From Candidatus Nitrosacidococcus sp. I8 (GTDB lineage: Bacteria; Pseudomonadota; Gammaproteobacteria; Nitrosococcales; Nitrosococcaceae), in assembly GCF_945836005.1 (NCBI RefSeq), contig NZ_OX241534.1, positions 1,722,275 through 1,786,274 on the forward strand: 64,000 nt of DNA, given 5' to 3'. The notes beneath the pieces are model-generated. The model searched no databases and was not told the origin of the DNA. It saw only the letters and a program-made list of their open reading frames with translations. A program made the position numbers and the translations under genes. Within the stretch, counting starts at the first letter, position 1. Each line of letters begins with the position of its first letter. This document shows, in pieces, positions 11,437 through 18,351 of this stretch.

Positions 11437-11970
11437 ATGCTTTACCGCAGAATCAAGCTTTTCTGTATTTTTTTATTGTTTGCTACTCACTTTCAAATCG
11501 GTTGGAGTAAAATTCTATTAGGCTGGCTTGAATATATAGAATTTCCTGAATTAGGCATTGTAGCTAAAGCAAAAATGGATACGGGTACCTTCCTTTCTTC
11601 TCTTCATAGCATTGATAAAGAGTATTTTCAAAAAAATGGAGAAAAATGGGTGCGGTTTATCTTAGAAATAGAAAATCAACGTGCTAAGAAGAAACACAAA
11701 AAAACTCACCTAATAGTAGAACGACCCATTGAACGATTCACTTCGGTGATAAGCTCTAATGGCATAAGCAATCGTCGTCCAGTAGTGCTGATGACAATAT
11801 GCTTAGGGAATCAATTATATCAGGAGCAATTTACCCTCAATGATCGTAGCCATATGATTTATCCTATTTTAATAGGACGAAAAAGTATTGAGCATATGGG
11901 ATTAATTGATGTAAGCCACATCTATACGATGCAGCAGCCTCAATGCAATTCTAAGAATAATATTAATTAA
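11437..11970 (+). CDS. Retropepsin-like ATP-dependent zinc protease family protein
   Basis: A 177-residue protein with a probable N-terminal signal or anchor (about 6-24) followed by the PF05618-type domain. The key signature is MDTG at 47-50 followed by SSLH, the Asp-Thr-Gly motif shared with retropepsins. The C-terminal GRKSIEHMGLIDVSH segment is also typical. Members are labelled ATP-dependent zinc proteases, but the fold suggests an aspartic peptidase; no substrate can be named. It precedes the exported-module cluster in the same direction, separated by 77 bases. Confidence 0.8.
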   Translation: MLYRRIKLFCIFLLFATHFQIGWSKILLGWLEYIEFPELGIVAKAKMDTGTFLSSLHSIDKEYFQKNGEKWVRFILEIENQRAKKKHKKTHLIVERPIERFTSVISSNGISNRRPVVLMTICLGNQLYQEQFTLNDRSHMIYPILIGRKSIEHMGLIDVSHIYTMQQPQCNSKNNIN

Positions 11971-12047: not shown

Positions 12048-13013
12048 ATGAGTAAAACCATGATTATCAAAATAAAGTTATATATATTATCGTTATTATC
12101 TTTAATTTTTTTCACTCACTCAGCTTTTGCAATACAATTTTATCCAGAAAATGGTTGGTGGTGGAATCCTCAACAATCTGGAAGTGGTTACAATATTGAA
12201 GTACAAAATGATACCCTGTTTGTTGCTACCTTTGTTTATGACAATCAGGGACAACCTACTTGGTTTTCAGGAAGTGCTAATAATTTAAGCAGCAGTGACA
12301 GCACTGTTATTGTTGCGCTACAAAAATCAGAGGGTGGTGCTTGTTTAGGCTGTACTTATACTGCCCCACAAACTGGAGATGCTGGTATTCCTCTTACCCT
12401 AAGCTTCACTGATGAAGGTCATGGCACGGTAGTGATTAATGGCCAATCTATTCCTATTGAGCGATATGATTTTGCCTATGGAGATGGATTGGCTATCCTC
12501 CAAGGATCGTGGGTTGTCAGTGCTCCCTTTACTTCTAGTACTACAACTGCCAGCGATTTTGGTTATACTGATATCCTTGCTTATACTCAGATGAGCAATG
12601 GCCAAGCATCGGGCCAGGGACTTGCAGGGCAAACTATCGTAGCCCAAGGAAGTAGTAATAATTCTTTTATTAGCCGTACCCAAGCATCTGCACAACAAGA
12701 TTTAGTTGCATCATTCATGTTAGTTGGGTTAAATACTATTTTTGGAACAGCGGCACTGGTCAATTCTAATGCTACTGATCAAGATATTAATACTGCATTA
12801 AATAATGCAGTAACTAATAACGCAATATTTATCGGCTATCGCTCTACTCCTATATTAGGACTACCTAGCAGCAATCAACAACCTACTTCTGTCAAAGCTC
12901 AGTCTATTAACGAATCTGCTAATAGTCCTATAAAGAATTTTCCTAAAGCAGAAAATTTAATAGATTCAATTAAGTTAGGAACTACTGGAATAGAAATTCC
13001 AAACTTTAATTAG
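12048..13013 (+). CDS. Exported WW-P-GYNIE module protein, paralogue 1
   Basis: A 321-residue secreted protein with a signal peptide (about 4-29, ending HSAFA). The first half carries ENGWWWNPQQSGSGYNIEVQ, LFVATFVYDNQGQPTWFSG and GGACLGCTY, then LSFTDEGHGTVVINGQSIPI. The second half repeats features seen in its paralogues: QDLVASFMLVGLNTIFGTA and an IFIGYR end. From memory, such WWNP..SG.G.N segments occur in many proteobacterial exported proteins without known function. The CxxC is not followed by His, so it is not a heme site. Ribosome binding is weak; an in-frame ATG at 12060 is an alternative start. Confidence 0.75.
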   Translation: MSKTMIIKIKLYILSLLSLIFFTHSAFAIQFYPENGWWWNPQQSGSGYNIEVQNDTLFVATFVYDNQGQPTWFSGSANNLSSSDSTVIVALQKSEGGACLGCTYTAPQTGDAGIPLTLSFTDEGHGTVVINGQSIPIERYDFAYGDGLAILQGSWVVSAPFTSSTTTASDFGYTDILAYTQMSNGQASGQGLAGQTIVAQGSSNNSFISRTQASAQQDLVASFMLVGLNTIFGTAALVNSNATDQDINTALNNAVTNNAIFIGYRSTPILGLPSSNQQPTSVKAQSINESANSPIKNFPKAENLIDSIKLGTTGIEIPNFN

Positions 13014-13042
13014 TTATTAATTTTTTTAGTGCATTGCTAATT

Positions 13043-13075
13043 TAGGCTACCCATCTATTTTTGGTGGGTAGCCTA
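13043..13075. terminator. Strong hairpin after paralogue 1
   Basis: TAGGCTACCCA at 13043-13053 pairs perfectly with TGGGTAGCCTA at 13065-13075 across an 11-base loop. It stands 30 bases after the stop codon. No uninterrupted T tract follows, so it may act as a weak terminator or an mRNA 3'-end stabiliser. Confidence 0.5.
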
Positions 13076-13207
13076 GATTGATTTATCCTGTTAAATTATC
13101 CACTTGTTATTAAAAATAGCTAGTTTAGGAGGGCTAGTAAAAGATATTGTTAAATATAAAATCAATATAAACATATAAAACCATTAATACCAAGAAAAAG
13201 AAAGTTT

Positions 13208-14064
13208 ATGAAAATAATCTATAAATTAATATTTAGTGTTTTTTTTTATTCTTTACTAAATATGCTACTGCAGTTTCTCCAGAAAATGGTTGGTGGCGAG
13301 ATTTTGACCAACCAGGAACGGGTTATAATATAGAAACTCAAGATAATACTTTATTTGTAACCATCTTTACCTACGACAGTCAGGGTAATCCTATCTGGTA
13401 TTCTGGATCTGGACCATTATCAGATGATATAACAACCATAAATCTTCTCCAGTCTGTTGGGGGATCTTGCTTTACTTGTGCTTACACGACAGCCACAACA
13501 AGTGATAGTGGTATAGAAATTACCTTTAGTTTTACCGATTCAGGTCATGGTAGTACCACTGTAAATAATCAAACCATCCCTATTGAGCCATTTAATTTTG
13601 GTTATGAAAAAAACGCTTTACGTATTATAGGTAACTGGACTATAAGTGCCCCTTTGATTACTAGATCAAGCGGCATTTACGGATTCTCTAGCGTAGTTTC
13701 ATATATTCCAAGTAGCGATTCAGTAATAGGTAAAAGCATATCTGGGAGTAGCCAATTATTCATTACAAAGGAAAATTCAGACGTATTTATTACAACCCTG
13801 CCAATCTCTAACCAAGAGAATTTAGTAGCTGCTTTTATATTTAATGGCTTAAATGAAATTCAAGGAAAAGCAGTGATACTTGATTCTGGTGCTACAGAGC
13901 AAGAAATGGGTAATGCACTTAATCAAGATGGAACCTTATTAATTGGGTTTCGAAATAATTTAATAATTAACACGCCATCTGATCAAAGCTCTAGTATGTC
14001 ACTCATTACGAATAGTCAGGTAGATACGGCTATTAAAAATATAGATTTTTCAGTAACTCCTTAA
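13208..14064 (+). pseudogene. Exported module protein, paralogue 2, with frame break at a T9 tract
   Basis: The ATG at 13208 opens a signal-peptide-like start (MKIIYKLIFSVFF), but the frame leaves the homologous frame at a run of nine T (about 13239-13247). One extra T would join it to FTKYATAVSPENGWW and the complete module that stays open to the stop at 14064. The main body retains all family features: DFDQPGTGYNIETQ, FTYDSQGNPIWYSG, GGSCFTCAY, FTDSGHG, and the ENLVAAFIFNGLNEIQGKA second half. The rest is intact and well conserved, so this may be a recent inactivation, a phase-variable state, a gene read by slippage, or a sequencing error in the homopolymer. Confidence 0.7.
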
Positions 14065-14076
14065 GGAAATATTGTA

Positions 14077-17000
14077 ATGAAGCGTATATTAATATTTTTT
14101 AGTTTTATTTTTGCTATCAATATATCTCATGCAGCTGCTATTGCTCCAGAGAGTGGTAAGTGGTGGAATCCTCAAAATCCAAATATAAGTTATAGCATTG
14201 AAGCACAAGATAATACCCTATCCATAGTTACTTTTACCTATGATGATCAAGGTAATCCTGAGTGGTACTCAGGCTTTGGTCAAGTTGCAGCAGATAGCTC
14301 AATAGCTATTGATTTATTTAAATCAGAGGGTGGATCTTGTATAGGCTGCTCATATGTCACTCCTACTCAAAGTGATAGTGGTACAGAGATATTGCTAAGT
14401 TTTACTGATTCAGGTCATGGTAACTTATCCATAGATGATCAGCTCATAACTATTGAAAGGTTTAATTTTAGCCAAAAAAGTAGTGAAGAGAGAATTTTAG
14501 GTAATTGGGTAGTTAGTGCACCGTTTGTAGGTCGAGAGGATGGATCTACTGGATATTCCGATATCGTCTCTTTTTCTGAAAATAATGGGGTTATCACTGG
14601 TGAGGGAATATTTAATCAGCTAGGATCTTTATCTCAATTAGATGAAAATGGAACATTTCTTAGTATTGTTCCTATCTCAACAGATAAGAATTTAGCAACT
14701 CTTTTTACTTTAAATGATATAAATACTTTTGTAGGTAAAGCCTCTATTTTAGATCCCAGCTTAACCCAACAAGAGATAATAGATATATTAAATAGCCAAG
14801 GTACACAAACGCTAGGCATTAGAGATAATACAGCAACCGATTTTAGGCTATCAGATATTAGCATAGCTTTTAATAATCTCGAAAATTTAACTTTATTGCC
14901 AGTATCTACAAATCAAAACTCTGTTAGTACACAATTTGGAAGTAGCACGATCCAAAGTGTAAGTACTACACAACCAGCTGATTCAGCAGCTATAAATGCT
15001 GGACTAGCAAATGCATTTAGTCAGTTACAGTTTGCTGCTTCCAATACAGCTGCACTTTTTGGCAGTGCATTAAACACTAGCCCTAATACTCTAGCATTAT
15101 CAGGTAGCCCTAATACTACTCTAGTATGGCATGGCACAGTTCTGACAACTCCTCCAACCTCTACAACTACAGAACCACCTCCACCTCAATCTTCAGCTTC
15201 ACCTCCACCTCAATCTTCAGCTTCACCTCCACCTCAATCTTCAGCTTCACCTCCACCTCAATCTTCGGCATCAACTGCTAGTTGTTCATCTTTTACCGGA
15301 TTTAAATCTACAGGTAGTTTACCTCAGCCATACCTGTGTTCAAATGGATTGGCTACTTTTGGTCAAATCTTTGATAGAGGTGTAGTACCTACAGGTAAGA
15401 CAATTACTACTCAATATGATACTCAGGTAGATATTAAGGCAAGATGGGATGACGGTAGCGTAAAACATGCAGTGATTACAGTAGATGGGCAACAAGGATT
15501 TATTAACTTTAGTATCATTAATCCTCCAGTTAGCCAAACAGCTGCAAATTATAGCGATCCGGGCACTACCCTAACTTTAACGAGCGGTCAAAATTATAGT
15601 AGTCAAGCTATGCCGTTAAAAACAACTTGGTTAAGTGGTCCTTTAGTAGTTGAGGAAATTTTAGAGGATCATAGCGATCCAAATCTTGTGGTACAGTTCC
15701 ATGTACGTCATTATAATAATGGATCTACTCGTACTGAAACAGTAGTTGAGAACTCTAAAGCTTATGCACCTCAGAATACTGTTACTTATACAGCACAGAT
15801 TACATCAGGTAGTGCTACCTTTAATACAGGGCAGCTTACTCACTATAAAGCACAACGTTGGCACCATGCACTTTGGTATAACAATCAAAAGCTAGATAAT
15901 TATGTTGTGCAAGACACACCCTATATGACACAGGTTGGGGTCATTGATAGATATCAAGCTAATATTCAACCCTCGCAGAGTTATTTGAGCAAAATGCGCC
16001 AATCTTGCGCACCTTTAAATAACTGCGAATACCTTGCCCAAATGGGAGATGCAGGCTTAAGTGAAATGATTGGTCCTCTACCGCGTTGGACTACCAGCTA
16101 TGTCACTTATCCACAGGATAAGCGCACTTTCACCTATATGCTGGCCGGTGATGACGGAATGGGAGCTTACGATATTCACTTTAGGGAGAATAATCAAAAC
16201 GGTACCTTAAGTAATACGGCACTTAATTACTATCCCTTAAGCATTGTTGAGCATCCTGGTGTTTCTTTAATCGCATGGATCTACTCTACCCCTCAAGATA
16301 AACTTCCTTGTAATCCAAGCCTTTGCACTGCAGCTGGAGTAGGTTATAAAAATGGAAACAGTAATAGTTGGGATAACTCTCATCAGCCTTCAACCGCTTT
16401 TATTCCTTACATGGTAACTGGCGATTACTACTGGATGGAAGAGTTAGCATTCGTTGTATCTAATAACCTTATATGGGGGCATCCAACTTATCGAGAAGGA
16501 AGTAAAGGTAATATAGATGGTACAATTAGCCAAGTACGAGGTAAAGCATGGACATTTAGAGAAATTGCTCATGGAGCATATTTATTACCTAATGAATCTT
16601 CAACAGCATACCCAACTACAAATGAAATTAACACAATACTAAATTATAATATTAATTTCTTCGTTACCTCTTATGCGAATAAGCAATGTATAACCATACC
16701 AGGTGTAACACAATCACCTGATTGTGCAAATAGTATTGGTCAATTATCAACAAGTACAACTTACCCTGGACCTTATAATAATGTGCCTAATTCATCTATT
16801 TCACCATGGATGCATAGTTACTTTGTTTGGGCAATGCAACATATTTATATGCTAGATCGCAGGGATAGCACAGTGCGTAATATACAACCGCTTGTCCAAT
16901 TTACTGCTCAATTAGAGCTTGGGATGTTTGGTCCTTACAACTCGACTGGTTATTGTTGGATAGTAGCAAGTGCTGATCGAGTCAGTGCCAAAGATGGTAG

Positions 17001-17376
17001 TGATAATTGGTTAGCTACTATTGCGGATATGTTTAATATATCTTTCCCTGATGCTATAGGAAAAACTTGCCCATCTGCGGATATGTCTCAAGCCTTAGGT
17101 AATAATTGGGCTGTCCTGCATGGTGGTCCTGACACACTTGATGCGAGCAAGCCAGCACGAATGTTTGCATCCTATGGAACTGCTGGTGATTATCCAGATT
17201 ATATGCAAATCGGTTTAGCAGCTGCTATTGACAGTGGTTCATCTGAAGCTACAAACTACGGATCAACAGCTTGGGCAAACTACAAATCGGAATACTACAA
17301 TGCACAACGTGAATCTGCTCATAATGATTGGCCTGTTTGGGCAGTAATACCACGTAGTCTTAACGCTAATAAGTAA
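14077..17376 (+). CDS. Large exported fusion: paralogue 3 module, Pro/Ser linker, lyase-like domain
   Basis: A 1099-residue secreted protein. A signal peptide (about 1-19) leads into the shared module (about 20-270: SGKWWNPQNPNISYSIEAQ, GGSCIGCSY, FTDSGHGN). A low-complexity region (about 280-400) ends in four 8-residue PPPQSSAS-type repeats at 368-399. The remaining roughly 700 residues begin with an RGVVPTGKTI ... ARWDDGSVKHAVITV stretch. This resembles the N-terminal RIFT-barrel of PcRGLX/YetA-like exo-polysaccharide lyases. It continues into a helix-rich, Trp/Tyr-rich region (RGKAWTFREIAHGAYLLP, WMHSYFVWAMQHIYMLDRR) that could be an alpha/alpha toroid. The enzyme assignment is inference. 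TAAGGA overlapping the previous stop is the likely ribosome binding site. Confidence 0.8.
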   Translation: MKRILIFFSFIFAINISHAAAIAPESGKWWNPQNPNISYSIEAQDNTLSIVTFTYDDQGNPEWYSGFGQVAADSSIAIDLFKSEGGSCIGCSYVTPTQSDSGTEILLSFTDSGHGNLSIDDQLITIERFNFSQKSSEERILGNWVVSAPFVGREDGSTGYSDIVSFSENNGVITGEGIFNQLGSLSQLDENGTFLSIVPISTDKNLATLFTLNDINTFVGKASILDPSLTQQEIIDILNSQGTQTLGIRDNTATDFRLSDISIAFNNLENLTLLPVSTNQNSVSTQFGSSTIQSVSTTQPADSAAINAGLANAFSQLQFAASNTAALFGSALNTSPNTLALSGSPNTTLVWHGTVLTTPPTSTTTEPPPPQSSASPPPQSSASPPPQSSASPPPQSSASTASCSSFTGFKSTGSLPQPYLCSNGLATFGQIFDRGVVPTGKTITTQYDTQVDIKARWDDGSVKHAVITVDGQQGFINFSIINPPVSQTAANYSDPGTTLTLTSGQNYSSQAMPLKTTWLSGPLVVEEILEDHSDPNLVVQFHVRHYNNGSTRTETVVENSKAYAPQNTVTYTAQITSGSATFNTGQLTHYKAQRWHHALWYNNQKLDNYVVQDTPYMTQVGVIDRYQANIQPSQSYLSKMRQSCAPLNNCEYLAQMGDAGLSEMIGPLPRWTTSYVTYPQDKRTFTYMLAGDDGMGAYDIHFRENNQNGTLSNTALNYYPLSIVEHPGVSLIAWIYSTPQDKLPCNPSLCTAAGVGYKNGNSNSWDNSHQPSTAFIPYMVTGDYYWMEELAFVVSNNLIWGHPTYREGSKGNIDGTISQVRGKAWTFREIAHGAYLLPNESSTAYPTTNEINTILNYNINFFVTSYANKQCITIPGVTQSPDCANSIGQLSTSTTYPGPYNNVPNSSISPWMHSYFVWAMQHIYMLDRRDSTVRNIQPLVQFTAQLELGMFGPYNSTGYCWIVASADRVSAKDGSDNWLATIADMFNISFPDAIGKTCPSADMSQALGNNWAVLHGGPDTLDASKPARMFASYGTAGDYPDYMQIGLAAAIDSGSSEATNYGSTAWANYKSEYYNAQRESAHNDWPVWAVIPRSLNANK
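15178..15273 (+). repeat. 24-bp minisatellite, four units, in the linker of the fusion protein
   Basis: Four tandem 24-bp units start with CCTCCACCTCAATCTTC at 15178, 15202, 15226 and 15250. The first three are identical in the part I compared, and the fourth differs in its last few bases. They encode PPPQSSAS repeats between the module and the C-terminal domain. The unit is a multiple of three, so copy-number change would alter linker length without breaking the frame. Confidence 0.9.
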
Positions 17377-17396
17377 TAAAAACTATCAAATCTTTT

Positions 17397-17429
17397 AAGG
17401 GATTTCTAATATTAGAGATCCCTTTTTTA
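17397..17429 (+). terminator. Rho-independent terminator after the large fusion gene
   Basis: AAGGGATTTCT pairs with AGAGATCCCTT, with one T-G wobble, followed directly by a T-rich tail. It lies about 20 bases after the stop codon. It implies that paralogue 4 starts from its own promoter or depends on read-through. Confidence 0.8.
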
Positions 17430-17451
17430 TTTGAGTTGAAAAGTAATAATA

Positions 17452-18351
17452 ATGAAAAATATATTTAACATAATAATTCTAACATTTTTTTCTTACAGTG
17501 TTTTTGCTGTAATGCCAGAAAATAGTTGGTGGTGGAATCCTCAACAATTTGGAGGTGGATACAATATTAAAATGGAAAACAATACTCTATTTATAGCTAC
17601 CTTTATTTACAACCAACAAAGACAACCTATTTGGTATTCAGGAAATATTGATAATATAGAGAGTAGTAAAAATACTATTACTATAGATCTTTTCGAGTCC
17701 CAAGGGGGCACTTGCTCAAGTTGTACTGATATAACAGTACAATCTCCCACTCATCCCGCTATGGAATTTACTTTAAGTTTTACCGATGAAAATCATGGAA
17801 TTATAATCTCTCAAAATCAGTCTATTCCTATTGAACGGTTTTATTTTAATAGCTCAGAGGGAATGACGAAAGTGGTAGGTGCTTGGTCGGTAAATTTACC
17901 TTATATAAAAAGAGAAAATGGAATTATTGGATTTGCAGATATAGTTTTTCTTTCACAAATTAACAGTCATCAAATTGTAGATAGAAGTTCTCGTACAATT
18001 ATCTCTCAAACAAATATACCAAATGTTTATGTAAGTTTAAATAAAACTTCAGAGAAACAGTATCTTGCAACAGTAAGTGTTTTACAGAGTTCAAACTTAT
18101 TATCTGGAATAGCTGCAATAGTAGATAGTACGGCTAGCATAGAACAAATAGATAATACACTTCAAAACAATGGGACATTAATGCTAGGTTATCGCAGTGG
18201 ATTTATTAAAAATTTAGATATTACTTATCCCCTGCCTCCACTACAAGATCAAGAGATAAGCACAATGAGCGTCCTACTTAACAAGCTTGCCAAATCAGTG
18301 GATTTTATACTTTTAAATAAGATTACTCATTTAAATACCATACAACACTAG
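17452..18351 (+). CDS. Exported module protein, paralogue 4
   Basis: A 299-residue secreted protein with a signal peptide (about 1-19, ending SVFA). It carries the cluster's shared module: ENSWWWNPQQFGGGYNIKME, FIATFIYNQQRQPIWYSG, GGTCSSCTD with the conserved CxxC, LSFTDENHGIIISQNQSIPI, then IVFLSQI and a GTLMLGYRSGF end. It is convergent with secF, only 15 bases apart. Of the four copies its second half looks most diverged. Function is unknown; surface or periplasmic binding is a guess from export and domain shape. Confidence 0.75.
   Translation: MKNIFNIIILTFFSYSVFAVMPENSWWWNPQQFGGGYNIKMENNTLFIATFIYNQQRQPIWYSGNIDNIESSKNTITIDLFESQGGTCSSCTDITVQSPTHPAMEFTLSFTDENHGIIISQNQSIPIERFYFNSSEGMTKVVGAWSVNLPYIKRENGIIGFADIVFLSQINSHQIVDRSSRTIISQTNIPNVYVSLNKTSEKQYLATVSVLQSSNLLSGIAAIVDSTASIEQIDNTLQNNGTLMLGYRSGFIKNLDITYPLPPLQDQEISTMSVLLNKLAKSVDFILLNKITHLNTIQH

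Follow-up and report, generated by a model that had tools for sequence, protein, structure and literature searches.

A lineage-specific tandem cluster of exported paralogues with a predicted two-barrel module, one copy fused to a phage-shared carbohydrate-enzyme-like family, in Candidatus Nitrosacidococcus sp. I8

Introduction

The lipocalin signature consists of a GxW motif on the first strand of the barrel and an arginine or lysine on the last. The exported proteins described here resemble lipocalins, DUF3598 (2o62) and BFA1 (5yvf) in that they are predicted to form a tandem pair of eight-stranded barrels marked by an initial GxW and an Arg in the last strand; however, searches revealed no sequence similarity to these families, the Foldseek scores are weak and the barrels are shorter. 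One of them, copy 3, also invites comparison with the PcRGLX-type exo-rhamnogalacturonan lyases (PF19501; PL26), in that its model has an N-terminal PcRGLX-type beta-domain followed by a helical toroid. This likeness extends to the first Pfam domain only and stays below the cut-off, whereas the central and C-terminal PcRGLX domains were not reported. A further comparison is with gp39 of EBPR siphovirus 1 and its IMG/VR relatives, which belong to the same family as copy 3 over nearly its entire C-terminus but differ in that most, by a simple rule, carry no signal peptide and lie beside head genes, and in that a search of viral contigs yielded no barrel module. Finally, the WWNP modules of S8 and RCC1 proteins (L031, L033, L034, L035, L058, L059) have the core domain in common with the copies studied here. 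Those modules are mostly paired and C-terminal with a GGQTL segment in place of GG.C..C, whereas the present copies are N-terminal, continue into a second domain and have GG.C..C.

The four-gene cluster and its setting

The window, that is, the whole 64-kb stretch of DNA analysed, has a GC content of 37% and belongs to a single-contig genome of 1.85 Mb that encodes amoA. Four adjacent paralogues lie on its forward strand at 12048–13013, about 13208–14064, 14077–17376 and 17452–18351, with a pairwise identity of 36–44% over roughly 250 residues (a difference of 56–64%). In this respect the original prediction of four adjacent same-strand paralogues held, and the motifs by which it had recognized them (WW..P and others) are present in the copies. 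Three extra copies are dispersed in the same genome, of which L005 is close whereas L006 and L007 are divergent; a TnpB/OrfB-like transposase gene, identified by eye only (L007:76-1194), adjoins one of the divergent paralogues.

Copies 1, 3 and 4 each form a complete gene, with a long intact frame and a readable signal peptide. Copy 1 encodes 321 residues comprising a signal peptide, two predicted beta-barrels and a disordered tail; its core module, or barrel 1 (GWWWNP ... IERYDF), for which the strands are predicted, spans 12144–12473, and its second domain, or barrel 2 (GSW ... GYR), spans 12504–12842. In the 1099 residues of copy 3, a signal peptide and the two-domain module (core at 14146–14469) are followed by a proline-rich linker, whose repeats encoding PPPQSSAS can be read in both sequence and translation at 15178–15270, and then by a carbohydrate-enzyme-like C-terminus. 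Copy 4 encodes 299 residues, a signal peptide plus the two-domain module, with its core at 17515–17847.

Copy 2 departs from this pattern, and a signal peptide on every copy, as first proposed, is therefore readable in copies 1, 3 and 4 only, copy 2 being frameshifted inside its signal peptide. The frame of the ATG at 13208 is not that of the module, which is open from 13237. The two frames meet at a T9 tract (13239–13247) within the signal peptide, and only one other A/T run of nine occurs in the 64 kb. The translation contains one internal stop, and 275 open codons remain after the shift. The core module of this copy (13279–13599) contains GWWRDF, departing from the consensus with WWRDF, and has proline in place of the terminal Arg. 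Faulty assembly, a mutation that became fixed or slippage at this site may each account for the frameshift. Because copy 3 starts 12 bp past copy 2, the two genes are probably co-transcribed, and the T9 tract, as a possible slippage site, could affect copy 3 as well.

Terminator-like hairpins on the forward strand follow copy 1 (13038–13080; 18 pairs, weak tail) and copy 3 (17397–17424; with a T tail), which suggests three transcription units. Six terminator-like sites were found compared with 3.6 +/- 2.1 in shuffled sequences, a count that is not significant alone. Upstream, at 11437–11970, lies a gene for an exported retropepsin-like peptidase (PF05618), for which the nearest NCBIfam model, RloA3, scores below its cut-off; since this gene adjoins uvrD in the sister genus too, it is placed outside the cluster.

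A widespread core module and its partners

A core profile was made solely from tandem modules of unrelated proteobacteria, with no window sequences included. This external profile finds all four copies, at iE 5.7e-28, 7.5e-21, 2.6e-20 and 1.3e-19 for copies 1 to 4, so chance similarity is excluded and the copies are indeed related. The core comprises about 108 residues and elsewhere occurs singly or paired. The shared region of some 240 residues described earlier is thus real but is not a single module; it is composed of this core and a second predicted barrel. In the window copies, as in L025-L029, L032 and L036, the core precedes a second domain with a G-F/Y-R-like end motif, and the module sits N-terminally, directly after the signal peptide, often making up the entire protein. 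The near-invariant core positions (P, GWWWN, GxG, Y, W and a terminal R) are all present in copy 1 and largely so in copies 3 and 4.

Searches of Pfam, NCBIfam, PHROGs and PDB sequences with the module returned nothing credible, in agreement with the expectation of a family with no assigned function: the module falls in none of the sequence families of Pfam, NCBIfam or the PDB. Nor were there matches in the viral contigs or plasmids searched, and the papers listed by a literature search on the motif were all unrelated. Literature on the genus also turned up an S-layer protein, NpdA.

That related segments occur in many proteobacterial secreted proteins was borne out, in that the core is widespread among exported proteobacterial proteins. 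Within the class, its distribution is patchy with local expansions: it was counted in 5 of the 369 genomes drawn, with several matches in each, and the host genome itself is among the matches listed. A search for co-occurring domains, proposed with the original prediction, recovered diverse fusion partners, including an S8 peptidase in Nitrosococcus (genus inferred; L033 and L069 judged by eye), a trypsin-like peptidase, a 5'-nucleotidase, an endonuclease/exonuclease, a cupredoxin and, again by eye, RCC1 repeats. The core is a promiscuous accessory domain.

Predicted fold of the module

Structure prediction, also proposed at the outset, was run with AlphaFold on copy 1 from an alignment of 25 sequences. 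The resulting model has a mean pLDDT of 74, and it predicts a module of two eight-stranded antiparallel beta-barrels in tandem, a predicted fold with fairly good support. Barrel 1 (residues 8–111) is mostly modelled at 82–94, which is good confidence; barrel 2 (residues 125–237) is modelled with less certainty, and the final 54 residues form a disordered tail. Foldseek searches against the PDB matched the module with BFA1, DUF3598, lipocalin-like and designed barrels, nitrophorins, lipocalin-derived anticalins, pallilysin and factor-H-binding protein, all weakly (best E 6e-4, with modest to low TM-scores). The pair of signature positions, GxW and an Arg in the last strand, recurs in both halves of the module. 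The W and R of the second half are invariant over the seven paralogues of the genome and nine family sequences, and those of the first half are nearly invariant over a wide set, copy 2 being without the first-half Arg. Comparison of the profiles of the two barrels did not support their homology, and no Pfam or PDB sequence match ties the module to calycins. For both reasons, we term the module calycin-like and do not file it as a calycin.

The C-terminus of copy 3 and its phage relatives

The C-terminal region of copy 3 (15283–17373, forward strand; 697 residues) belongs to a family shared with phages. It is modelled with high scores (pLDDT 85.5, pTM 0.91) as a PcRGLX-type beta-domain (residues 22–198; about 15328–15876) and a helical toroid (residues 212–679; about 15916–17319). 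Foldseek comparison with the PDB returned GH15, GH78, GH94, GH88/105 and GH76 enzymes, as well as sugar epimerases, at weak E-values and low global TM-scores. PF19501 scores 19.8 bits on copy 3 itself, below the curated cut-off of 22.1, and matches 23 of 38 relatives at E <= 0.01, with gp39 of EBPR siphovirus 1 and one protein from a genome of another genus in the family (G001) exceeding the cut-off. On the evidence of the model, the Foldseek matches and PF19501 in the relatives, the architecture is carbohydrate-enzyme-like, in keeping with the original prediction that one copy is fused to a probable carbohydrate-active domain. An RmlA-like identity for this region was considered and rejected; its best E was 0.005, over a stretch modelled as part of the toroid.

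Across the 38 sequences, invariant toroid residues include Y214, R301, H367, R419, W423 and R426. D279 and D364 recur in 33 of these sequences, and the toroid has no invariant carboxylate. As an invariant carboxylate pair is absent, lyase chemistry would be favoured over hydrolase chemistry.

The family has both bacterial and viral members. G001 encodes two relatives of about 1300 residues with a PcRGLX-type domain, of which the one scanned carries Kelch repeats; the pair are nearly identical and in tandem (L051:5421-13873), and two cytochrome P450-like genes follow. A further relative, with RTX repeats, resides on a Skermanella plasmid. Viral relatives were found at 61 loci (L093-L153), 60 of which were recovered by profile. 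Portal, major head or terminase genes adjoin several relatives in the phage loci examined, and one such locus also encodes a carbohydrate esterase. By a simple hydropathy rule, a signal peptide was not seen in 54 of the 60 phage relatives, which fits a role as virion proteins, whereas copy 3, judged from its sequence, is exported via its barrel half. Of the 38 members in the alignment, 37 come from viral contigs, and a PHROG match was obtained for none of the 38.

Evolution of the cluster

The locus was compared across species, as the original prediction had advised, and the sister genus has no syntenic cluster. The G001 genome (2.0 Mb; GC 41–46% in the stretches taken) holds the two blocks that flank the cluster, hemL-uvrD-retropepsin and secF-SBP, about 190 kb apart, which places the cluster at a rearrangement boundary; in the stretches read, no module gene was found beside either block. 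Four further genomes (G002-G005) are larger, at 3.4–4.1 Mb, with a GC content of about 50% where sampled. The four-gene cluster is lineage-specific. The tree does not support grouping the four tandem copies in one clade: two G001 genes nest inside the tandem set (support 91/93), and the four stay together in only 3% of bootstrap trees. Module genes broken by internal stops or frame changes are present in G001 (L056, L052) and G002 (L062). Together with the frameshift of copy 2, these broken genes in sister genera give the history of the family the look of birth-and-death turnover and not of a kept system. The earlier view that the copies had been kept is not supported on these grounds, and neither is that of a dedicated four-gene system, the cluster being lineage-specific and its core a promiscuous accessory domain. 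The locus does not amount to a new type of system.

Discussion

The best explanation of the locus, which we hold tentatively and a little short of an even chance, is a polymer-binding accessory barrel module with one polysaccharide-active fusion, copy 3. Under this explanation, the products would be exported proteins with two small calycin-like barrels in tandem, and barrel 1, the widespread accessory module, would most likely bind an extracellular or cell-surface polymer and so keep its partner in place. The stand-alone binders would be copies 1 and 4, joined by copy 2 if slippage restores its frame, and copy 3 would be the working enzyme, in which the barrels and the proline-rich linker tether a polysaccharide-active toroid, probably a lyase. 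The likely substrate would be exopolysaccharide from the aggregates that this acidophile forms. Growth takes place in flocs, aggregates and biofilm (PMC8115276), and large aggregates form at low pH (PMC13170337); against the polymer reading, the published transcriptome showed no regulation by pH of the genes for EPS production (PMC13170337). The paralogy, the limits of the domains, the fusions, the frameshift and the kinship with phage proteins are established, both folds are predictions, and polymer binding, lyase chemistry and substrate are inferences. Fusion to many types of secreted enzyme supports a targeting role for the module, but the partners are not all polysaccharide enzymes, which counts against a polymer as the target. 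It also counts against this explanation that, for the putative passage of the products across the outer membrane, two secretins were found but nothing matched the Pfam model of the type II secretion component GspL.

The same variety of partners could be explained if the module were an export, maturation or surface-anchoring tag and not a polymer binder, with the stand-alone copies acting as surface or matrix proteins. The occurrence of a C-terminal, often paired module on very different secreted proteins is consistent with such a tag. C-terminal sorting tags, however, are normally short and strictly C-terminal, whereas the module is N-terminal after the signal peptide in the window and in L025-L029, L032 and L036, where it is often the whole protein, and we consider a tag unlikely. 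The predicted eight-stranded barrels, with their GxW and last-strand Arg and with nitrophorins and anticalins among their PDB matches, raise the question of whether each barrel is instead a true calycin-type carrier of a small ligand (a lipid, haem, pigment or siderophore), the fused enzyme being incidental. Yet a core of about 108 residues is shorter than classical lipocalins, has no sequence match to any calycin, and is fused to hydrolases in a manner that fits targeting better than transport, all of which makes a carrier distinctly unlikely.

The cluster might instead be mostly evolutionary debris, made of weakly selected duplicates that arose recently in this lineage, copy 2 having already decayed to a pseudogene. 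The frameshift in copy 2, the broken copies of the sister genera and the missing syntenic cluster in the sister genus are in line with this idea, but the long frames of copies 1, 3 and 4 are unbroken, copy 2 stays open for hundreds of codons past its shift, and copies that have diverged by more than half of their residues retain the same conserved positions; decay as the main explanation is likewise decidedly improbable. Least probable, and best regarded as a long shot, is a more far-reaching proposal: that the module is an undescribed calycin-type general extracellular targeting unit of proteobacteria, that copy 3 joins it to an undescribed phage-shared polysaccharide-lyase family exchanged between virions and the secreted proteins of bacteria, and that the T9 tract acts as a slippage switch for the pair formed by copies 2 and 3.

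Returning to the proposed polymer-binding module with its enzyme fusion, the locus is real and uncharacterised, and its worth lies in the unnamed accessory module and in the fusion of that module to a phage-shared carbohydrate-enzyme-like family. Here is a secreted domain carried by proteases, nucleases and a polysaccharide-active-like enzyme whose partners are annotated without it, because no curated family exists. The C-terminus of copy 3, in turn, connects bacterial secreted proteins to a phage family that lies outside PHROGs. If it is a depolymerase, it would offer a testable handle on the exopolysaccharide of acidophilic nitrifier aggregates and on the sharing of enzymes between phages and bacteria.
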